A stretch of DNA of 64,000 nucleotides from Pleurocapsa sp. PCC 7319 (lineage in GTDB: Bacteria; Cyanobacteriota; Cyanobacteriia; Cyanobacteriales; Xenococcaceae). Of the stretch, positions 26,175 through 37,603 are shown in pieces. Numbering within the stretch: position 1 is the stretch's first letter; each line of letters begins with the position of its first letter. The position numbers and the translations under genes are program-made. Location: the NCBI RefSeq assembly GCF_000332195.1, contig NZ_KB235922.1:3321322-3385321 (forward strand). The letters are read 5' to 3'. A model generated the notes under the pieces. That model was not told the origin of the DNA. It ran no database searches and was given only the letters and a program-made list of their open reading frames with translations.

Positions 26175-29054
26175 TTATTGCCAATTTCCGACTAGGACAT
26201 AAGGAGACCAGTAGAAAGGATGGGGTGGTAGATCTTTAAGAGATTCAAATCTAGGATTTTCTCTCAGAAAATTTATCAGAGAAAGTTGAGAATTTTTGAG
26301 TGCGTTTACTTTTTGGGAATTGGGTTTCCTCAACTCCTGATAAAATTGAGTCATTAAATCAGCCGTAAATTTATCTCCCACTGGCCATAGACTAGCAATA
26401 GTACTACTAGTCCCAGAACGAACAGCTACTCCAGCTAAACCTAAAACAGCTTTTTCATCTCCTGCTGCAGTATCACAAGCACTTAACACAAGAAGTTCTG
26501 GAATATTAGTTTTTCCGACACTTAACAATTGATTCAACTTATCAACATTAATGGATTCTCCATCACCTGTAACAATAAAAGTTTTTTCAGGATTGGAGCT
26601 AAATAAACCATGAGTTGCTAAATGAAGTACGTCATATGGCTGTTGTTTAAGTTCATTTTCAAGTCGCTTGGCGGTGAATTCTTCATTAAGAAGCTGTTGG
26701 CAATTAGGACAATTTGCGCCGATCTGGTTAAGTTCTAGAGCAACTTTATCGAGTGCAGAGAAAAGTTTTCCATCAATTTCAACTTGTTGATTAACTCCAG
26801 CAGCTAAAATGCTTAATGATTCTGATTTAGACTGTTGAGAAGTAAGTGACTGTAACTGTAAACTAGGAACATAAGCGATACCGTAATTTTCAATTAAATA
26901 TTGTTTACCGTCATACAGTGCAGCCATTGGTACTCTCTGTAAGCGATCGTTAAGCACAAAAGCCAAGGTTTCAATTTGGCTAGAGTTTAATTCAGACTCA
27001 AAAGGGCGAATTAACCATTCGTATAACTGTGTTAATATCGGCAACAAATTTTGGGTGTTTGCCTCTACCTGTCTTGACCTAAGAGGTACAGTTTTGAATA
27101 TATTAATAGCAGAATCATTAAAGCTTTCATTGTATAAGTTGTCATACAGACTATCTAAAGTTTCATTGAATTTTGTTTCTGCGATCGCAATGGTGGTTTG
27201 TTTTAATGGCTGTTTGGGTAAAGATAAAATTACTTCTAGTCTATTGGGAAAAATAATCGGGTAGATTACTGCTGCCTGGTTATCTAAATCCTCAATTTGG
27301 ATAGCAACTTGTGCCTCTTCTACACAAGGATCTTGAAAGAAATTATCTAATTCTGCAATCTGCAAAGATTCTATAATAGTTCTTGCTAGTTCTAAACGAT
27401 TTTTTTGCGGTTTGATTTGAGATTTGGTTTGAGAAGTTTGCGGATTTAAAACTATTAAAGATTCTAATTCTGGTTCTGAAAGCTCGGATTTAAGTAGTAA
27501 ATCGGCTAAAGATTTATATACAGGCTGAATCTCTTGGCGAAAATCAAATTGTAAATCTTGATTATTTTTATTTAGATCGGTACGAAGAGATTGCAAAGTA
27601 TTAAAGGCAGCAAAGTAACTAGAAATTGCACCTTTTGTATCTCCAAGATCTCTGAGGATATTTCCTAATTGAGATTGCCATAAATAGCTAATTTCCTGAG
27701 AATTTTCAGCAAGCAATAAAGACTGCTCTGTCATTTGCTTTGCTTGTTGGAGTATCTTTTGTCCGTCATTACTTGACTGTGTTGATGAATCTAGCTGTTG
27801 CCACTGTTTGTAATACATCAGACCCATGTAACCCAAGGCATAAGATTCAGATTCACTATCTTGTAAAGAGCGAGCCTGTTCTAAAGATGTTGTCAACTGA
27901 GGTTCAACAATATCTATTTGTGACAATTTGAGAGATTGATTAGCAAAATTTATTCTCGCGGATATTGCTGCACGAGTTGGAGGTAAATCGTTAATATTAG
28001 ATTTAATTGTGGTTTGTAAGGTGGCAATTTCTGGATTTAATCTTGTATTGAGTAAAGATAAAAAGCCTTCTGCTCTTTGAATTAATCGAGAATCGTCAAC
28101 TCTTGACCAAGAAGAAATACGTCGATTTACTTCTGCTTGCCACCATTGCTTAAGATCTACTAGTAAACTTAAGTGATTAAGTTGTGCTTGAACTTTAGTC
28201 ATAGGTGAAGTAGATGAGCTGGTTTCTACTTTCTGATAAGATTCAATAGCTGAGATATCTGGTTCCAAAGCCTTTGATTGAGATTGAGAGGCGATAATCT
28301 CAGTGATTTGTTCGTAATTCCAGCGATGTCGCGTTTGAATACCTAAAGTCTTTTTCGTATTAGCTAAACTTAATTGGGTAGCTCCCTCCACTGGTAGACC
28401 CTGAACATTAGAGAGAGTATATTCTAAGACTTTTTGAGATTCTTTAAGCTGTCCCTGTAGTCTCAAAACTTCCCCCAGACTGCGAAAGGCGATCGCTCGA
28501 TCAATTGATATTTTTTGAGAATTTGGAGAGAATTGATCAAGCAACAAATCAACCTGCTCGGAGTCACAATTTGGTTGCTCGAAAGCAAAGGCTTGAAGTA
28601 AAGTTTTACAGGCTCTAGGATATGTACCTAAATTTTGCTGAGCTTGAGCTTTATTAACCAGACTACTAAAAACTCCTTCTTCATTACCTACTTGTTGATA
28701 AGCTTCGGCTGCTTTCTCCCAGAGATTGATTGCTTCGTCAAATTTTCCGGCATTGTATTGTTGTTGACCTTTCTTGGTGATTGCCAAAATATCAGAATTT
28801 TTGCCTGACTCAGCTTTAGCTAATAATACTTCACTATCGATCTTACTTTTATTTACTTGTATTTGCTCTTGATTGATGTCAGGCAACAAGGGTATATTAC
28901 GCGCCGAAGCTGGTAACAATAAACTGGAACTCAATCCCAATAAACTACAAAAAATAAAAATTACCAGATTACGAGATTTAATCAGATTAATGGCTTTTCT
29001 TAAAATAGTTTGAGATTGTAATTTAATTGAAAATAAACGCCGTTTTCTTGCCAT
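26175..29054 (-). CDS. TPR-CHAT domain protein, third gene of a two-partner secretion operon
   Basis: A 959-aa protein with a basic N-terminus and a hydrophobic segment (LVIFIFCSLLGLSSSLLLPA) ending ASA-RN, consistent with export or membrane anchoring. Residues about 85-560 contain tetratricopeptide-like repeats. Residues about 680-959 are a CHAT caspase-like domain: His815 in HLATHGLF and Cys860 in LSACDTAAGDE form the catalytic dyad. CHAT proteases are activated by sensor partners and cleave specific proteins. The gene begins inside the end of tpsB (55-bp overlap), so translation is probably coupled and the protein likely works with the TpsA/TpsB system, perhaps processing the secreted TpsA. 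That role is inferred. Function through a regulated periplasmic proteolysis step is an alternative. Confidence 0.9.
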   Translation of the reverse strand: MARKRRLFSIKLQSQTILRKAINLIKSRNLVIFIFCSLLGLSSSLLLPASARNIPLLPDINQEQIQVNKSKIDSEVLLAKAESGKNSDILAITKKGQQQYNAGKFDEAINLWEKAAEAYQQVGNEEGVFSSLVNKAQAQQNLGTYPRACKTLLQAFAFEQPNCDSEQVDLLLDQFSPNSQKISIDRAIAFRSLGEVLRLQGQLKESQKVLEYTLSNVQGLPVEGATQLSLANTKKTLGIQTRHRWNYEQITEIIASQSQSKALEPDISAIESYQKVETSSSTSPMTKVQAQLNHLSLLVDLKQWWQAEVNRRISSWSRVDDSRLIQRAEGFLSLLNTRLNPEIATLQTTIKSNINDLPPTRAAISARINFANQSLKLSQIDIVEPQLTTSLEQARSLQDSESESYALGYMGLMYYKQWQQLDSSTQSSNDGQKILQQAKQMTEQSLLLAENSQEISYLWQSQLGNILRDLGDTKGAISSYFAAFNTLQSLRTDLNKNNQDLQFDFRQEIQPVYKSLADLLLKSELSEPELESLIVLNPQTSQTKSQIKPQKNRLELARTIIESLQIAELDNFFQDPCVEEAQVAIQIEDLDNQAAVIYPIIFPNRLEVILSLPKQPLKQTTIAIAETKFNETLDSLYDNLYNESFNDSAINIFKTVPLRSRQVEANTQNLLPILTQLYEWLIRPFESELNSSQIETLAFVLNDRLQRVPMAALYDGKQYLIENYGIAYVPSLQLQSLTSQQSKSESLSILAAGVNQQVEIDGKLFSALDKVALELNQIGANCPNCQQLLNEEFTAKRLENELKQQPYDVLHLATHGLFSSNPEKTFIVTGDGESINVDKLNQLLSVGKTNIPELLVLSACDTAAGDEKAVLGLAGVAVRSGTSSTIASLWPVGDKFTADLMTQFYQELRKPNSQKVNALKNSQLSLINFLRENPRFESLKDLPPHPFYWSPYVLVGNWQ

Positions 29055-30763
29055 GTGTTATCACCAGAATCAATATCTACTAAAGGAATTCCCCAATCTA
29101 AGCGAGCTGTCAAATTATCACTTTGCTGCCATAACAAACCCACTCCCGTACCGACTAAAGTATTAGTCTCAGGATCTGGTCGCTCAATATTCCAAACGGT
29201 TCCCAAATCGATAAAGGGTGTTATTTGCAAACTGCCTTGCACTTGGGAAACTTGAAGAATAGGTACCCTAAGCTCCGCTGAAGCCAAGATCCCACTGTCG
29301 CTCAATAACACATCTTGACGATATCCTCGCACACTTGCTTGACCCCCTAGCCCAAAGTTTTCCAAAGAAACTAAAGAATCGGTTGCTAGCTGAAAATCAG
29401 ATTTTACGACTAAGCTAGTACCTACTTGAGAATTATTTTTTGGTGTCTTTAAAAGGCGTAACCATAATATTTGTCCTCGCCAGGCAAAAAACTGGCTATC
29501 TGCTTCACCATTATCATTGACAGTAGCATCAAAAGCATCTATTCCAAGGCTAAATTGAGATCGAGCAGCAAGAAATGTTTGACGACTGCGTTGTTGCCAT
29601 TCTTGAGCAAAACGCAATACAGATAGTCTAGTTTCTCCTTCTCGATCTGCTCCAATAGAAATCGGAAAATCTCTTCCCAGTAGTTGACCATCGCTTTCTC
29701 GTCTAGATGCAGTTAAGCTCAAAGCTAGTTCTTGAGTACTATTCTCTGTGGCTTTTTGAAGGATTGGCTGTCTGTAGGTAAAATCAAAATCACGGGAATT
29801 AATTTCAATATCTAAATCATCAAACGGGTCTTCAACAATTTCACTATCAATATTTCTGAAGTTAAAACCCAAACTACCATCGCGAGAATTAATCGGTAAA
29901 GTATATCCTACTTCAAATTCGTCACTACCATCAGTATTGAGATAGGTCAAACTGATCCCATCTCCAATGCCAAAAAGATTATCTTCTGATATCTCAACAC
30001 CGCGTTGAACACTGCCGACACTAGGATTTCGATTATTATTGAGAATGGCTTGGAAGCCAAAAGTTTTTGCTCCGTTAACAGTAATATCGAGAATATTTGT
30101 ACCTCTTTTATTGCCACTAGCAAGTTCAGCATTAATATTGTCTATCAAAGGATTAAGCTGCAATAGTTGTAGTGCTTCTTGCAGTTTATTAATATTTAAA
30201 GGTGTGGACGTTGCCCGGGAAATGCGATCGCGGATGTATTTTTCTTTGAGTCTACCTTGGGTAATATTGATATTAATATCTGCTAAGCTGCTTTCGACGA
30301 TTTGAATTTTCAGGCTATCTGATTCCAGTTGCTGTTCGGGGATATAGGCGCCCGAAGTAATATACCCTTGTTGTAAATAAAGCTCTGTTATCCTATTGAC
30401 TGCTTGAAGTAGTTGTGCAAAACTAATCGGCTGACCAATAAATTCAGCCGTTGCTGCCTGTAATTCTTCTTCTTTAAATACCGTCCCGCCAACAAATTCA
30501 AAACTCTCAAAAGTAAACTCTCCTGGAATATCAGGAACCCCCTCCGAAGGTGTTGTTTCTTCAGTAGAAGGTGTTTCGATTGGTTGTTCTTGAGGTGTTA
30601 GAGGAGTTGGAGCGGGAAGTTCAGGAGATTGAGAAGGAACGGGATTTCTCGATTGTGCAAATCCCTGAGGTGCATAAAAAAAAATAGCTAAAATAGGAGA
30701 CAATACTAAAAATATGGCTCTCAAACGAGACAAAATCAACCTATTATGCCAAGTATTGCTCAC
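29000..30763 (-). CDS. ShlB/FhaC-type outer membrane transporter (TpsB)
   Basis: The pore of a two-partner secretion system, which passes the TpsA exoprotein across the outer membrane. The 587-aa protein has a signal peptide ending GFAQS, a Pro/Thr-rich linker (about 40-78), a POTRA_2 domain (about 80-155, FEFVGGTVFKEEEL), a second POTRA-like ShlB segment (to about 230), and a 16-strand barrel region ending in Phe (NYNLKLF), the usual outer-membrane signature. GLGGQASVRGYRQDVL contains the conserved VRGY-type L6 motif. The start codon is GTG at 30761-30763, with no clear Shine-Dalgarno. It lies 267 bp after tpsA (the gap contains a mobile repeat) and overlaps the CHAT gene. Confidence 0.93.
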   Translation of the reverse strand: MSNTWHNRLILSRLRAIFLVLSPILAIFFYAPQGFAQSRNPVPSQSPELPAPTPLTPQEQPIETPSTEETTPSEGVPDIPGEFTFESFEFVGGTVFKEEELQAATAEFIGQPISFAQLLQAVNRITELYLQQGYITSGAYIPEQQLESDSLKIQIVESSLADININITQGRLKEKYIRDRISRATSTPLNINKLQEALQLLQLNPLIDNINAELASGNKRGTNILDITVNGAKTFGFQAILNNNRNPSVGSVQRGVEISEDNLFGIGDGISLTYLNTDGSDEFEVGYTLPINSRDGSLGFNFRNIDSEIVEDPFDDLDIEINSRDFDFTYRQPILQKATENSTQELALSLTASRRESDGQLLGRDFPISIGADREGETRLSVLRFAQEWQQRSRQTFLAARSQFSLGIDAFDATVNDNGEADSQFFAWRGQILWLRLLKTPKNNSQVGTSLVVKSDFQLATDSLVSLENFGLGGQASVRGYRQDVLLSDSGILASAELRVPILQVSQVQGSLQITPFIDLGTVWNIERPDPETNTLVGTGVGLLWQQSDNLTARLDWGIPLVDIDSGDNTWQENGVYFQLNYNLKLF

Positions 30764-30898
30764 AATTTTAATTTTTAAACTTGTTCTATTATTTTCTATT
30801 AAACGCTAGGAACTGATAGTTAATTTTTATGTTGTCTAAGTAGCAAATTTATCGCTTCCAAATTAAAGCTTTCAGCTTTTATGCAATCAACAATCAGA

Positions 30899-31012
30899 GG
30901 GGTGAGCGAAATTTACGGTGGCAAAAATTTTAATTGCCGTTACTCGTTACTTTTTACTCGTTACTTAAAGTGTCTCTATTATTTAACTCCCACACCTTTT
31001 TTCGTTCACCCC
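30899..31012. mobile_element. MITE-like element, family A copy 1 (114 bp)
   Basis: The termini GGGGTGAGCGAAA and TTTCGTTCACCCC are inverted repeats with one mismatch. The 7-bp word AATCAGA lies directly outside both ends (30892-30898 and 31013-31019), as a target-site duplication would. The interior has GTTACTC-type heptamers. A second copy with the same ends and its own 7-bp duplication is at 56019-56190. This copy lies between tpsA and tpsB. Confidence 0.75.
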
Positions 31013-31030
31013 AATCAGAGTGTAATTTAA

Positions 31031-33787
31031 CTACTGGTTGTGGGAAACAGAATCGCAATCTGGGTTATTTTCTCCAGGATAATAAGGATTAGTATTAGCT
31101 ATACTTGCAGTAAGAACTAGCCTTCCTTGAGAATTTAAATACCAACCTCTAGCAGCAGATGGTAGTTGTTCTACATCAGAATCTTGGTTAGTCTCTGTTG
31201 AATTAGTAGGATTTTGATTAACTCCATCCTCTGAATCAAATCCAATTAATGCTTCCGTAGATAGTGAGGACGTTGGACGTGCAGGTAAACCACCTCTTCC
31301 TGTAATCGTAAATTGACTCTCTTGCTTACCCTTATCTACACCACAAGCACTGACAACCATATCTTCTGAATTAATAACTTGTTGAGGGATATCCAAAAAC
31401 TCTAAAGTATTTTGTGCCTCTGGAGTATTAATGTCGACAATTCCCGCAACACCGCCAATAGCTTCAATCCGACAATCACCACACTGAAATACCCCTTGAG
31501 TATCAATGGAAATAACCCCGCCTTGTCCTACTTGTTCTGCATTGGCAGTAATATCACTATTTCCTAATAAGGCAATAAAATCTGAGCTGGTGAAAGTAAT
31601 ATTACCACCATCGCTAGTCTGATTAGAATCAGTACGAATCTCACTATTATTATCCAAAATAGCCTGTCGAGATTGTATAGTGATGTTTCCTTCCTCACCC
31701 GTTTGGGTATCTGAACTAATGATCCCTTCGTTGTTTAAAAGAAGAGAGTCGGTAACAATATCGATGTTGCCTGCTTGACCTTGACGAGAAGCAGTTACAT
31801 TGATTTCAGAGCCGTTTTCAATGTTAAGTAAGCTGCCAACCCTTAAGAAAATATCTCCAGCATTACCAAGAGTAACAGTTTCACTTGACACGATCGCATC
31901 TTGAATCAGATTAAACTCATCCGCATCAATTTCAATGGTTCCTGCTGAACCAAGACCTGGATTGAAACCTTCAGCCTGGATAGTGCTAGCACTAATTCGT
32001 GAATCATTGAGAATATCCAGAGTACTATCAGAATTACCTATAGAGATGTTACCAGCAGGAGCATTTCCAAATCGAGTTTCTTGACCAGTACCACCATGAC
32101 TATTGGCTATAGTGTCTCCAGTCCTGACAGAAACCGTGGCATTGTTGATAGTCACCTCATTGTTAGTATTGTCACTACCAATAGAAATACTCCCTCCAGT
32201 AGCTTCGGAGGTTGCACCTGATGTTTCCGCAACAACAATAGCTTGATCTTCAATTCTAATATTTGCTCCTTCAAGAGAAATGCTACCTCCTGCACCTGTC
32301 CCAAAAGCAGTAGCCGTAACGCTAGTATCTTCTCCATTGATGTTGACTTGTTGACCTTTTATAGTGATCGAACCTGCTTCGCCAGCATCAAAGTCTGTTC
32401 TTACGCCAAATGAAGCTGGATTATGAGGGTGAGATTCAGCAGCAATCTCAGCTCCTTCTTGAATAATTACTTCCTGACTATTAATATTTCCAATATTGAT
32501 GTTATTAGCCGTTCCTGGAATTTCATTATTACCGTGAAAACCATGAGTATCCGTAATAATTTGAGTATTGCCATCATTCTCAGGAAGATTATTGCTACCA
32601 TTAATAGAAATTCGATTCCCATCGGTATTAGTACCAATAAAAATAGCACCTCGCTCATTACTATCTGGTTCACCCTGAATAGTGCGATTCCATAATTCCG
32701 AAGTAATGCCAACACTATTATCAATGGTAATTTGTTCTCCATCAATTGCGATCGTGCCAGACAACTGATTACTCAAACTGTCAGCATCAATAGTATCTAC
32801 AGGATTAAAAAACTCAAAATTATCAAACTGTTGAGAACCCTCACTGATTGAGATATTACGCCCTTGAATAGTTATGTCTCCAGCTTGAGATTGTCCTCTA
32901 GTATAGATAGTGGGTAATGTAGCTTCAGTACCTTGAGCAATAGTAATATCTTGTCCTCGTATGTTGATATCTCCGCCAACATCACTATAAATAAATTCAG
33001 TACGACCACCAGGTGATTCTATTGCACTTCTAAGTGTAGATGCCAGTTCAGAAGCTGAGGTGATTTGAATATCCTGAAAATTATTCACCCCCTCAAACCC
33101 TAATTCCCAACCTTGCGGAATTCCCGTTAAATTAACAGTTTCATCACTGCCAACACTGCCAATTTCAATATTTCCTGAAGGTGCAGTAATCTTGGTGTTA
33201 TTCAGGCTAACATTTCCTCCAATTAGAGCAAAAGTATTACCCGATTCTAAAGTTAAATTTGCACCTTGACTTTGTATATTCCCTGGATTGGGCGCAAATG
33301 CTACTCCAATAGGTGCGCTAACAGTTAGTAAAGGTGCTTGATTGGGATCTGCGCTGAATACAGTACCGTCTTCAAAGTTGACACTAGTAGCACTACTACC
33401 CAAAAAAGCTCCACCAATGTCTAAACTCGCACCAGAACCAAAGCTAATTCCAGCAGGGTTAATCAGAATTAAATTAGCATTGTTAGCACGAATTAAACCA
33501 TCAATATTAGAAATCGAGCCACCAGTAACCCGACTAATGATATTGTCTATCGTTCCATTGTTAAAAAACGCTTCAAAATTCGTCGGGACAGAGAACTCGC
33601 CAAAACTATGGAACAAATTGGTTCCTTCCGTGGCACCACCAGTAATTTCAAAAACATTGCCTGACAAATCTACATTAGTTGACAATGTCCCATCAGGAGA
33701 TACTTGCCCTTGAGCAGCATTACCAAAGAATAGAGACATCAGGGTAATACTGCCTACCAAACTCAATCGATGAATAAGCTTTTGCAT
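31031..33787 (-). CDS. Filamentous-haemagglutinin-type secreted exoprotein (TpsA)
   Basis: A 918-aa secreted protein. A signal peptide (residues 1-27, ending AAQG) precedes the TPS secretion domain: GNVFEITGGATEGTNLFHSF, then GGSISNIDGLIRANNANLIL and NPAGISFG, matching the family's NPNGI/NPAGI motif. The remainder to about 770 is a repetitive beta-helix rich in Asn, Gly, Ile and Ser. The C-terminal part, CGVDKGKQESQFTITGRGG, is frequent in cyanobacterial TpsA-like proteins. It is the substrate of the TpsB encoded downstream and is expected at the cell surface, for adhesion or contact-dependent interactions. No toxin domain is visible at the C-terminus. It is first in the tpsA-tpsB-CHAT transcription order. 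Confidence 0.92.
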   Translation of the reverse strand: MQKLIHRLSLVGSITLMSLFFGNAAQGQVSPDGTLSTNVDLSGNVFEITGGATEGTNLFHSFGEFSVPTNFEAFFNNGTIDNIISRVTGGSISNIDGLIRANNANLILINPAGISFGSGASLDIGGAFLGSSATSVNFEDGTVFSADPNQAPLLTVSAPIGVAFAPNPGNIQSQGANLTLESGNTFALIGGNVSLNNTKITAPSGNIEIGSVGSDETVNLTGIPQGWELGFEGVNNFQDIQITSASELASTLRSAIESPGGRTEFIYSDVGGDINIRGQDITIAQGTEATLPTIYTRGQSQAGDITIQGRNISISEGSQQFDNFEFFNPVDTIDADSLSNQLSGTIAIDGEQITIDNSVGITSELWNRTIQGEPDSNERGAIFIGTNTDGNRISINGSNNLPENDGNTQIITDTHGFHGNNEIPGTANNINIGNINSQEVIIQEGAEIAAESHPHNPASFGVRTDFDAGEAGSITIKGQQVNINGEDTSVTATAFGTGAGGSISLEGANIRIEDQAIVVAETSGATSEATGGSISIGSDNTNNEVTINNATVSVRTGDTIANSHGGTGQETRFGNAPAGNISIGNSDSTLDILNDSRISASTIQAEGFNPGLGSAGTIEIDADEFNLIQDAIVSSETVTLGNAGDIFLRVGSLLNIENGSEINVTASRQGQAGNIDIVTDSLLLNNEGIISSDTQTGEEGNITIQSRQAILDNNSEIRTDSNQTSDGGNITFTSSDFIALLGNSDITANAEQVGQGGVISIDTQGVFQCGDCRIEAIGGVAGIVDINTPEAQNTLEFLDIPQQVINSEDMVVSACGVDKGKQESQFTITGRGGLPARPTSSLSTEALIGFDSEDGVNQNPTNSTETNQDSDVEQLPSAARGWYLNSQGRLVLTASIANTNPYYPGENNPDCDSVSHNQ

Positions 33788-34354: not shown

Positions 34355-34909
34355 ATGAATAAATGGCGAAATAAAGCTCTAAAACTGATAACAATTTCTG
34401 CATTTCCTCTGCTAGCTATAGCAACCTCAACTCAACCTAGTAATGCTAGTACTTTTGATGTTACTTGTAAGGCAAACAAAGGTACTCCAACTATTGTTGC
34501 TAGTCTAATAGAAAAAGGCAGTACTCAAGAAGATACTATTCTTCAGTTTCTACCTGAATATTTTTCTCCAAACGAGGCAATCAGTAAGTGTCAGACTACA
34601 GCCAACAAATTGCAAGAACTCTATAAAACAGATAATATCAGCTACTTATCTAGCGATACTATTGATGGCGGACAATCTGTAGTTTGTGCAGTTACTAGAA
34701 GAGGAAGTAAATGCGATAGTTATAGCTCAGAGATATTGTTTACTCTTGCTCAGGGCACAGATCCTACCTTGGCTTTATACGATATGCTCGATAATAGTAT
34801 TAAGCAATCTAATCCTCGTCCTGATAGTCGAACAGTAAGTCGGATGTATACTGATATTACTCCTTCCTTTTGGGATTCGGCTCGAGGTCGTGGATGGTGG
34901 CCTTTCTAA
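34355..34909 (+). CDS. COP23-domain exported protein
   Basis: A 184-aa protein with a signal peptide (to about residue 31, SNAS-TF). The mature part matches the COP23 (circadian oscillating protein) pattern: FDVTCKANKGTPTIVASLIE, then ILQFLPEYFSPNEAISKCQT, YLSSDTIDGGQSVVCAVTRR and KCDSYSSEILFTLAQGTDPT. The paired cysteines probably form disulfides outside the plasma membrane. In other cyanobacteria COP23 is a membrane-associated protein with circadian abundance; its biochemical role is not known. It is convergent with the double-kinase gene, with a shared hairpin terminator between them. Confidence 0.85.
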   Translation: MNKWRNKALKLITISAFPLLAIATSTQPSNASTFDVTCKANKGTPTIVASLIEKGSTQEDTILQFLPEYFSPNEAISKCQTTANKLQELYKTDNISYLSSDTIDGGQSVVCAVTRRGSKCDSYSSEILFTLAQGTDPTLALYDMLDNSIKQSNPRPDSRTVSRMYTDITPSFWDSARGRGWWPF

Positions 34910-34978: not shown

Positions 34979-37603
34979 TTAGTTCCAACATGCTGCCTTG
35001 GCTTTTTCAGCAGATTGATAATCAGGTTTGATTTTTAAAGCGTTGTCAAAACTATCTTGAGCCATCGGATAATTTTTTTGTTCGCACCAAGTTAAGCCGT
35101 TAAAGTAGTAAACCTGAGCTTTTTGCTCATCAGTAAATTTTTGGCTATCGATAATCTTATTAAATTGATCTCTAGCTTGATCATATTGCTTCAAATTTTT
35201 AAAAACAATTCCCACATCTCGCAAAGCAGGAAAATAGTTGGGATTCAATTCTAAAGCTTGAGTATATACTGCCAGCGCTTGATCATATTGCTTGATCTCT
35301 CGTAAATTTCTACCTTTGGAAGAGTAAAGTATTGATAGAAAAGTAGGATCTGTTATCCCTTCACTACTTTCTTCAACGATTGAAATTGCTTTATCAATAG
35401 ACTCTATACTTTGTTGATTTTCCTTTAAAGCTAGCAATGATTCTGCCTTGTTAAACCAATAATAAGGATCTTGAGAATTAAGAACTATTGCTTTGTTAAA
35501 ACTAATTAATGAGTCTTCATGTCTGTTGAGATTATGTAATGCTTCTCCCTTACAATTCCAAGCATAACTATCATGTTTCCTAATTGTAATAGCTAGCTGA
35601 CAAGAGGCTAGCATATCCGCATATTGCTTTAAGTAACCTTGTGCAATTCCTCGATTGATTAAAGCTTGATAGTAATTAGCATTGATTGCTAATACTTCAT
35701 CGAATTTTGCAATTGCTTCATGATATTTTTTTTGCTTGACTAATTCTACACCTTCTCTAAAAGTATATTTATAACCTTTATTTGTGGTTAACTTAGACAA
35801 CAAAGTGATCACAAGCAAAATAGTAAAAAGCGAAAGAATAGATATTTTCCAGTTTATTTTATGTAGAATATTCATTCTACCTTGAGAACGAATTTTACTA
35901 CTTGAATTTAATTTTATTTTGTTAAACTTACGTTTTAAAGCCGATAAAACTTCATCACAAGATTGGTAACGTCCTCCTTTTCCTAATCCAACCTTGATCA
36001 TTTTGTCTAAAATTTCTGCTAAATCTTGACTGACTTCGGTTTCATTACGCCATAATAGTTTGCCAGTTTCTGGATCTGTCTGGAATTGTTGTGGATGTTT
36101 CCCAGTGAGTAGATGAATTGCAGTCATCCCCAAAGCATATATATCACTGGCAAAAATTGGTCTTTTAGAACTTTGCTCTGGAGACATATACCCTTCTGTG
36201 CCTACAGCCTGTGTTGAGAGAGTTATTCTACTACTATTAGAAGATAACTGAACAATTTCTTTGACTGCCCCAAAATCAATTAATACAATTTTTCCATCAG
36301 AGGCCCGTCTAATTAAGTTAGAGGGTTTTATATCCCGATGGATAATCCGTTTACCATGAACAAACTGTAAAATTTCTAAGACATCAAATAGAATTCTAAT
36401 AACATTATTTTCTTCTAATTTTTTTTTACTTTTAATTTCTTGAGCTAGATCGTTGCCATTAATAAATTCTCTTACAAAATAAATTTCTTCGTTTTCAGCG
36501 AATTCATTGAAAAATCCAGGAATTTGTTCATGCTCACCTAATGCTCTTAAAACTGCTAATTCTTTATTAAATCTTTCTTCAGCGTCATGGGATAACCTGT
36601 TATTTTGTGGTCTTAGGCTTTTGACTATACACTGAGAATGTAGATGTCTAGCATAAATATCTTCTGCTAAATAAGTATATCCCCAGATACTACCGCCTAA
36701 ATATTGCCAAATTTTATAGCGACCTCCTAAGGTAACTTGGATTTTGAGTAAAGGCTCTAAATCTTGGAGGACTTCAAGGGCAGATTGATAACGACATAAA
36801 CCGCTACGATTTCTATAAATATTAGGATGAATCATTTTGTCTAAGATAGACTCTAATTCCCTGCTTACATTGTCATCTTTTTGCCATTTTGGAAAACCAT
36901 AACTTTCATTACTATTAAGTTCAATTTCAGGTTTTTGCCCAGTCAAAGCATAAACTGCAGTTATCCCCAAAGAATATATATCACTACTAAAGGTTGGAGT
37001 ACCTCTAAGTTGCTCGATGGGCATATAATCTCGTGTACCGATAATTTTTGTAAAATAGTTTTGAGTTTTAGAATTGAAACATAGAGTGGGTATTTGTTTC
37101 ATTGCTCCAAAGTCAATTAGAAAAATTTTACCGTCTTCTTTTCTTCGCATTAAGTTTGAAGGTTTGATGTCACGGTGAATAATGCCTTGTTGATGAACAA
37201 AATCTAATGTTTCTAAAGTAGATTGCAATAATTTGATGACCTCGATCTCAGATAGGCTACCTTGTTCTTCTATTTCTTCAAGAATATTTTGTCCATCAAT
37301 CCATTGTTGAACTAGATAAAATTCACCATTGATTTCAAAAGAGTCTAGAAGCTCTGGTATTTGAGGATTTGCAGCTAAAAGCTCTAGGGTTCTTATTTCT
37401 TTTAAAAAGCGACTTCTTGCTTCTTGCAAAATTTCAGGATCTTCAAATTTGGACTTAAGTTTTTTGATGACACACAAACTACCTGGTTGATGTATGATTT
37501 GAGTTATGTAAGTTTCACCAAAAGTTCCTTCTCCGATTTTTTTGAGAATTTTATACTTATTATTTATATTTTTTCCAGATTCAAAGTCAATTTCATTATT
37601 CAT
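34979..37603 (-). CDS. Ser/Thr protein kinase with two kinase domains, a membrane helix and TPRs
   Basis: An 874-aa Hanks-type kinase. Kinase 1 (about 17-280) has GEGTFGETY, the Lys in VIKKLK, GIIHRDIKPSNLM and LIDFGAMKQI. Kinase 2 (about 297-565) has a weakened glycine loop (GGSIWGYTY) but keeps IVKSL, RIIHRDIKPSNLI and LIDFGAVKEI. Both therefore retain the catalytic Asp and the metal-binding Asp. A membrane helix (about 590-608, ILSLFTILLVITLLS) follows, then about seven TPRs to the C-terminus. The kinases face the cytoplasm and the TPRs should lie outside the plasma membrane or in the lumen. Single-kinase TPR proteins are common in cyanobacteria; a tandem pair is unusual. Substrates are unknown. 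Confidence 0.9.
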   Translation of the reverse strand: MNNEIDFESGKNINNKYKILKKIGEGTFGETYITQIIHQPGSLCVIKKLKSKFEDPEILQEARSRFLKEIRTLELLAANPQIPELLDSFEINGEFYLVQQWIDGQNILEEIEEQGSLSEIEVIKLLQSTLETLDFVHQQGIIHRDIKPSNLMRRKEDGKIFLIDFGAMKQIPTLCFNSKTQNYFTKIIGTRDYMPIEQLRGTPTFSSDIYSLGITAVYALTGQKPEIELNSNESYGFPKWQKDDNVSRELESILDKMIHPNIYRNRSGLCRYQSALEVLQDLEPLLKIQVTLGGRYKIWQYLGGSIWGYTYLAEDIYARHLHSQCIVKSLRPQNNRLSHDAEERFNKELAVLRALGEHEQIPGFFNEFAENEEIYFVREFINGNDLAQEIKSKKKLEENNVIRILFDVLEILQFVHGKRIIHRDIKPSNLIRRASDGKIVLIDFGAVKEIVQLSSNSSRITLSTQAVGTEGYMSPEQSSKRPIFASDIYALGMTAIHLLTGKHPQQFQTDPETGKLLWRNETEVSQDLAEILDKMIKVGLGKGGRYQSCDEVLSALKRKFNKIKLNSSSKIRSQGRMNILHKINWKISILSLFTILLVITLLSKLTTNKGYKYTFREGVELVKQKKYHEAIAKFDEVLAINANYYQALINRGIAQGYLKQYADMLASCQLAITIRKHDSYAWNCKGEALHNLNRHEDSLISFNKAIVLNSQDPYYWFNKAESLLALKENQQSIESIDKAISIVEESSEGITDPTFLSILYSSKGRNLREIKQYDQALAVYTQALELNPNYFPALRDVGIVFKNLKQYDQARDQFNKIIDSQKFTDEQKAQVYYFNGLTWCEQKNYPMAQDSFDNALKIKPDYQSAEKAKAACWN

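Follow-up and report, generated by a model that had tools for sequence, protein, structure and literature searches.

A CHAT protein linked and fused to two-partner secretion in cyanobacteria, and its proposed role at the C-terminal anchor of TpsA

The 64,000-nucleotide stretch of Pleurocapsa sp. PCC 7319 analyzed here (contig NZ_KB235922.1, positions 3,321,322 to 3,385,321; referred to as the window) carries a two-partner secretion (TPS) locus in which tpsA and tpsB are followed by a gene for a protein with tetratricopeptide repeats (TPR) and a caspase-like CHAT domain. We found that the association between CHAT and TPS is real, widespread and repeated, and that it reaches fusion of the two in one polypeptide. 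That CHAT adjoins or is fused to large exported surface proteins suggests that the export machine contains a protease, whose role is probably to hold or release a surface filament. More specifically, we propose a third partner in the periplasm: CHAT would act on the C-terminal anchor of TpsA and thereby control whether the filament is retained or released, a reading to which we give about an even chance.

Linkage and fusion of CHAT with two-partner secretion

A sequence-only reading of the window had placed tpsA, tpsB and the CHAT gene in one direction, and we could confirm this arrangement along the minus strand, in that order. TpsA (31031-33787; 918 aa) has a signal peptide, a TPS domain at residues 28-250 (PF05860, E 2.5e-54, Pfam) and a beta-helix until about residue 790. 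Its AlphaFold model (mean predicted local distance difference test score, pLDDT, 71.5) is a beta-helix whose best PDB fold matches by Foldseek are EtpA, HMW1 and the hemopexin-binding protein HxuA. TpsB (29000-30763; 587 aa, GTG start) is a translocator of the ShlB/FhaC type, with POTRA_2 at residues 83-157 (PF08479, E 1.2e-20), ShlB at 222-543 (PF03865, E 3.7e-27) and the sequence SVRGY. A TPS domain on the cargo, a POTRA/ShlB translocator and a beta-helical passenger identify the pair as a two-partner (type Vb) secretion system, in which TpsB would export TpsA. The third gene (26175-29054) codes for 959 aa, with TPR_12 at residues 96-156 and CHAT at 673-957 (E 4.3e-61). Its start overlaps the end of tpsB by 55 bp (29000-29054), a value that was also read from the sequence alone and that holds if translation of the CHAT frame begins at its first ATG; GGTGA lies 6 nt ahead of this ATG. 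Among linked loci in relatives the overlap is 49 bp in 13/41 and 52 bp in 2/41, and this similarity may partly mirror the conservation of TpsB, because the ATG arises from conserved tpsB codons (..ACA TGG CAA GAA..). For the same reason we dropped the overlap as proof of tpsB/CHAT co-regulation. The gap between tpsA and tpsB is 267 bp and no terminator-like site was listed in it, in a terminator scan that, like the promoter scan of the window, was as a whole at chance level.

The arrangement is not restricted to the window. The 7.39-Mb Pleurocapsa genome has 29 CHAT matches, 19 of which are strong (E 1.1e-50 or better), 11 POTRA_2 matches and 38 TPS-domain matches. Within 10 kb of a strong CHAT we found a POTRA_2 gene in 8/19 cases and a TPS-domain gene in 12/19. 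On the main contig, 7/17 strong CHATs lie at most 10 kb from a POTRA_2 gene, whereas 20,000 rotations gave 0.46 such CHATs on average and never more than 5. The same-strand order tpsA-tpsB-CHAT occurs in the window and at loci L053 and L065, tpsB-CHAT at L051 and L058, CHAT followed by tpsB at L057, and tpsA-CHAT at L060. A degraded tpsB-TPR-CHAT remnant was also seen in this genome (L062:9399-12200).

To extend the survey to other genomes, we used the best 80 of at least 547 TpsB loci by similarity to the window TpsB in an alignment search. A CHAT gene lies directly downstream on the same strand in 41 of the 80, in 29 of them with tpsA upstream; the other 39 comprise 27 loci with no TPR-CHAT in the stretch, 6 with a TPR-CHAT elsewhere in it and 6 cut by a contig end. 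As the loci were picked by likeness to the window TpsB, the fraction 41/80 overstates the general linkage rate. In a set chosen free of likeness (26 TpsB loci with POTRA_2 at 60 bits or more, from genomes of the same order and class, the own genome excluded), a TPR-CHAT or a TPS-CHAT is present in the stretch at 8/26 (L157, L158, L164, L168, L169, L177, L181 and L182), not counting L170, which has only a weaker CHAT of another type. No CHAT was found at four extra TpsB loci, three from distant genomes and one a weaker match. Like operons occur across many cyanobacterial genera, and in a TpsB tree the linked state is scattered over several clades with 9 state changes. Moreover, the distance matrices of TpsB and CHAT correlate with r 0.92 over 45 pairs (largest of 2000 shuffles, 0.26), a value to which shared host descent contributes, and 27/45 pairs have the same nearest pair in both proteins. 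Two frame-broken CHATs (L087 and L102) are counted as linked in the 41/80 and in the tree, and were excluded from the pair test. At the genome level, TPS is matched at E 1e-50, a limit that hides fused TPS domains, in 23 genomes, all of which also have CHAT at E 1e-55, and none of the 9/60 genomes without CHAT at E 1e-55 has TPS at E 1e-50. We judge this co-occurrence to be weak evidence, as the genomes without CHAT are all small (1.8-3.5 Mb).

The closest form of association is fusion. Two of the 26 likeness-free loci, L169 (1492 aa) and L182 (1822 aa), code for a protein that combines a TPS domain with a CHAT at its C-terminus. Among CHAT frames of at least 1200 aa in 60 cyanobacterial genomes, listed to E 1.1e-69 and counted by eye, 32 of the 41 combine TPS and CHAT in a single polypeptide, from at least 18 of the genomes; the other 9/41 have no TPS domain. 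Together with L182 there are 33 complete fused open reading frames (ORFs), 4 of them also with TPRs. In four genomes all TPS-domain matches at E 1e-5 lie in fusions (G062, 1/1; G087, 2/2; G053, 2/2; G057, 3/3), so that TPS-CHAT seems to be the only TpsB cargo there. Both TPS frames of a fifth genome, G070, coincide with CHAT frames in position and length, and one of them was read (L191). A Pro-rich stretch precedes CHAT in many of the 23 fusions that we inspected, in some with a close cysteine pair after it. In a CHAT tree made with FastTree only, which included 31/33 fused proteins and gave warnings of long branches meeting, most fused CHATs form one group, and at least two changes separate fused CHATs and TPR-CHATs. 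At L182:9709-15177 a family-2 glycosyltransferase domain stands ahead of TPS-CHAT, either as a true fusion or as an artefact of an upstream start.

A second kind of fusion joins the two secretion partners. At L157 (5934-10325, 1463 aa) and L158 (5797-10122, 1441 aa), in hosts from two genome families, TpsA and TpsB form a single ORF in which the beta-helix precedes POTRA and barrel, and a TPR-CHAT gene follows with an overlap of 4 bp and 49 bp, respectively. A TpsB with a partial N-terminal TPS domain (residues 28-107; L113:9671-11650) is perhaps the remnant of such a fusion.

The sequence-only reading had put forward that CHAT and the two-partner system are functionally tied, and this is strongly supported by the linkage in both sets of loci, the distance correlation and the fusions, and the co-occurrence survey that it had suggested excludes an absence of conserved linkage in other genomes. 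That interpretation had missed the fusions, the cysteine-bounded tail of TpsA and the CHASE2 and DUF928 genes at related loci, which are described below.

The TpsA tail and the exported CHAT protein

The C-terminal tail of the window TpsA (residues 791-918; 31034-31417, minus strand) follows the beta-helix, was assigned no Pfam family in the scan of the window proteins, and contains C815, the motif TGRGGLP (829-835) and C911; the protein has two further cysteines, at 769 and 772. C815, G830, G833 and C911 are invariant in an alignment of 30 sequences. To describe the tail more generally we drew on 86 non-fused TpsAs encoded in the regions retrieved around TpsB or CHAT genes, leaving out incomplete sequences, those below 500 aa and duplicates. 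The body is cysteine-free in 74/86, and the last 230 aa hold two cysteines in 58 proteins, four in 22, none in 3, one in 2 and three in 1. The last cysteine lies at most 15 residues from the C-terminus in 80/86, and the tail measures, from its first cysteine to the end, a median of 98 residues (interquartile range 94-101; n=77 of 86). A motif like the TGRGG of the window was found in 74/86, and in the G-x-GG of the tail x is Arg or Lys in 72/86. As the motif is this general, we rejected the idea that the cysteine tail marks CHAT-linked TpsAs only. The four-cysteine form is commoner in operon TpsAs (17/29 vs 3/54 others, three operon TpsAs of the own genome being excluded from both groups), a contrast that does not amount to independent evidence because the sequences are related. 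In the AlphaFold model the pLDDT of residues 791-918 is mostly below 50, so the tail appears conserved and yet unfolded alone, the pattern expected of a partner-binding segment.

Both kinds of fusion bear on where this tail would reside. In the two full TpsA-TpsB fusions found, the entire tail is retained and ends directly ahead of POTRA. POTRA domains are periplasmic, which places the end of the tail in the periplasm in these proteins. In the TPS-CHAT fusions, CHAT replaces the tail: the tail motif is absent from all 33, and so is any cysteine within 15 residues of the C-terminus. In all 33, the catalytic cysteine is the only one within CHAT, and 0, 2 or 4 cysteines precede the domain, an even count that fits an oxidising compartment.

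The CHAT protein of the window resembles an exported protease. Its His-Cys dyad is intact, as first read, with H815 within HLATHG and C860 within LSACDT, and the dyad is conserved in 78/79 TPR-CHATs, a set from which the two frame-broken proteins were excluded. The export-like N-terminus also held when we read the sequence by eye: it resembles a signal for general secretory (Sec) export, with a hydrophobic run followed by ..LLPASA|RN, and a hydrophobic N-terminal run is present in 67/79. The AlphaFold model (mean pLDDT 85.4; predicted template modeling score, pTM, 0.84) has its best PDB fold matches by Foldseek in Csx29 of Cas7-11 complexes (8eey_B and 8eex_B; 12% identity), followed by the transmembrane anti-sigma factor DdvA. 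E-values were 2.7e-14 for Csx29 and 4.5e-11 for separase, with whole-chain TM-scores of just 0.2-0.4; these matches, together with Pfam CHAT across the full profile, assign the protein to the caspase/separase-like fold. A search of its sequence against solved structures returned two TPR-type matches and nothing else. Sec-like export without a TPS domain leads us to expect TPR-CHAT in the periplasm, and we propose that the window protein is a putative periplasmic cysteine protease.

A second cysteine, C577, is kept in 66/79 TPR-CHATs. Wherever a TPR-CHAT has exactly two cysteines (15 proteins), C577 is the sole other one past residue 50, and a cysteine occurs within 12 columns of it in 39/39 linked TPR-CHATs tested. 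It is conceivable that a C577-C860 disulfide locks the catalytic cysteine, which would suit the periplasm.

A proposed third partner and its alternatives

We infer that CHAT is periplasmic, that the tail serves as both anchor and substrate, and that triggered cleavage ends in release. TpsB would move TpsA through the outer membrane, starting with its N-terminus; outside, the beta-helix would fold, and the cysteine-bounded tail would remain at the periplasmic mouth of TpsB, anchoring the filament. TPR-CHAT would reach the periplasm via Sec, where its TPR part may read the tail or TpsB; upon a trigger, CHAT would cleave TpsA close to the tail, with the conserved Arg of TG-R-GG as a possible site, and thereby release or mature the filament. 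In the fused proteins CHAT, in the place of the tail at the C-terminus, could be plug and protease in one. Of the two suggestions made in the sequence-only reading, we favor a dedicated processing protease for a surface filament, the substrate being inferred; the other, a contact-triggered proteolytic response, may also hold. A bolder version, which we regard as possible and well short of an even chance, is a distinct cyanobacterial type V class with CHAT as periplasmic plug or gatekeeper, in which separate TPR-CHAT, TpsA-TpsB plus CHAT, and TPS-CHAT would be alternative layouts of a single machine that frees the filament by cutting it on command, with a C577 redox lock and a CHASE2/DUF928 signal as possible parts.

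Several observations weigh against a third partner acting at the anchor. The CHAT of L177 (6571-8904) lies beside TpsB and has lost both dyad residues, 12/79 TPR-CHATs show no hydrophobic run near the N-terminus under the cut-off applied, and 14/33 fused proteins are cysteine-free before CHAT. The tail is also present on TpsAs with no CHAT gene nearby, for example at L068. The 27/80 TpsB loci without a TPR-CHAT in the fetched stretch indicate that CHAT is dispensable for some TPS systems, unless it acts in trans. Conversely, several strong CHATs in the Pleurocapsa genome lack a TPS gene in the region retrieved (L050, L052, L054, L056 and L064), and the best plasmid CHAT match has none within 7 kb. 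Finally, a fused CHAT could be displayed outside instead of being held inside.

Two CHAT genes of other contexts should be mentioned. The export-like protein of L054:9609-13505, without a TPS domain, carries hundreds of acidic Thr/Gly/Asp/Glu-rich repeat residues before CHAT, and on a Nostoc plasmid (L209:4268-9277) a CHAT gene is preceded by genes for a sigma-70-family protein and a DUF1822 protein, possibly a sigma/anti-sigma pair.

Regarding the neighboring genes, a COP23-family gene (34355-34909, plus strand; PF14218, E 1.9e-16) is divergent from tpsA, and upstream of the operon lies a Ser/Thr protein kinase gene with TPRs (34979-37603, minus strand; Pfam). The COP23 (circadian oscillating protein) family occurs in 26/83 clustered loci, the window included, mostly tpsA-tpsB-CHAT operons, and a connection with the clock is conceivable. 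Two further families cluster with strong CHATs within 10 kb in the Pleurocapsa genome: CHASE2 (6/14; main contig 5/11, rotation mean 0.53, maximum 4) and DUF928 (5/12; main contig 4/10, rotation mean 0.48, maximum 4). Both are also found beside some fusions and plasmid copies. At L051:3707-6016 and L063:10436-12745, CHAT and CHASE2 occur in one protein, beside DUF928 and exported CHAT genes, and the CHASE2 protein of L066 has a histidine-kinase ATPase domain.

The fusions open another reading, in which CHAT is cargo: TPS would display or secrete a caspase-like protease that acts extracellularly or on neighbors, with the beta-helix as its stalk. The 33 complete TPS-CHAT proteins, many of those inspected with a Pro-rich stretch that precedes CHAT, speak for it, and TpsAs that are proteases exist, as a 2017 review records for LepA (PMC5422565). 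Against this, the separate TPR-CHATs are Sec-like and have no TPS domain, so TpsB should not export them, and the fused CHAT stands where other TpsAs have the tail, which is periplasmic in the TpsA-TpsB fusions; we consider CHAT as cargo a minor possibility. CHAT might alternatively serve periplasmic quality control, clearing stalled or misfolded TpsA without regulating release, as a dedicated operon gene with an export-like N-terminus would allow. This would leave the fusion of CHAT in place of the tail unexplained, and CHAT proteases are usually specific, triggered enzymes. We therefore hold it to be unlikely, even with the precedent of DegP acting on FhaB and HMW1 (PMC5422565). A last reading of this kind is envelope signaling, in which contact or stress sensed by the filament would activate periplasmic CHAT to cut a regulator, and nearby CHASE2/DUF928 proteins would relay the signal inward. 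It draws on the clustering of both families with strong CHATs above the rotation expectation, on some CHASE2 proteins that themselves include CHAT and on DdvA as the third-best fold match. We find it unlikely too, and place it after quality control, considering that the DdvA match may reflect helical repeats alone and that the 64-kb window has no CHASE2 or DUF928 match with the models used.

Two more explanations fare worse. A contact-dependent inhibition (CDI) system with CHAT as toxin tip would account for a C-terminal enzyme domain on a TPS-domain beta-helix protein. It is very improbable, because CHAT is mostly found here as a separate protein that has an export-like N-terminus of its own, no match was obtained in PADLOC, and no small recurrent gene beside CHAT stood out except COP23 when ORFs of at least 90 aa were clustered. 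That CHAT and TPS genes are chance neighbors, both families simply being as numerous in cyanobacteria as the 29 CHAT and 38 TPS-domain matches in this genome illustrate, is the least probable of all; like operons in many genera argue against it, and we rejected it on the basis of the rotation test and the TPS-CHAT fusions.

Relation to known systems

If a third partner acts at the anchor as we propose, a caspase-like protease would take part in the outer-membrane secretion of a large share of cyanobacteria. Maturation or release of a TPS filament would become testable through an operon-encoded enzyme, for which G062, a small genome whose sole TPS-domain match is a TPS-CHAT fusion, offers a minimal system. 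A testable function would likewise be at hand for many cyanobacterial genes annotated as 'CHAT domain-containing' and 'filamentous hemagglutinin N-terminal'.

Among CHAT proteins, the closest in fold is Csx29, which shares the architecture of TPR plus CHAT. Unlike Csx29 of Cas7-11 (Craspase), to which it is only 12% identical, the protein described here has an export-like N-terminus and a TPS partner, and at E 0.01 it matched none of the PADLOC defence models, so it does not belong to Craspase or type III-E. HetF of Anabaena is another cyanobacterial CHAT protein with TPR, whose active site is reported to be required for function (PMC8406250). It differs by an N-terminal CHAT, a transmembrane segment and a divisome role, and the NCBIfam model CellDiv_HetF (NF045509) gave no match to the window protein at E 0.01. 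Secreted CHAT proteins beside cell-surface genes have been noted in picocyanobacteria; in the excerpt at hand, proteins of that compartment are mentioned without being studied and are not tied to two-partner secretion (PMC7522525). Within the open-licence papers in PMC, the scope of our literature search, we found none tying CHAT to two-partner secretion.

Among two-partner systems, FHA/FhaC, HMW1/HMW1B and EtpA share with the window locus the TPS domain, the POTRA/ShlB translocator and the beta-helix. The closest parallel for the proposed mechanism is CdrA/CdrB-LapG of Pseudomonas aeruginosa, where the TpsA adhesin CdrA is reported to be cut in its C-terminal tail, and so released, by LapG, a cysteine protease of the periplasm (PMC5422565, PMC4694147), and a cysteine hook is thought to anchor CdrA at CdrB (PMC11898600). 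In both cases TpsA is, or would be, held by a C-terminal cysteine element and released by a periplasmic cysteine protease. LapG, however, is transglutaminase-like and regulated by LapD and c-di-GMP, whereas the present protein is a CHAT, encoded in the operon or fused to TpsA; only CHAT and TPR_12 passed the Pfam cut-offs in the window protein, and no LapG-type family is present even among the hits below the cut-offs. Our claim is that CHAT, a protein of unrelated fold, would work like LapG on CdrA, not that it is a LapG. Genes for maturation proteases appear to be absent from TPS operons, according to the 2017 review (PMC5422565). The protease-like gene in the operon described here sets it apart from these classical systems and, if the mechanism holds, would make it an exception to that rule.

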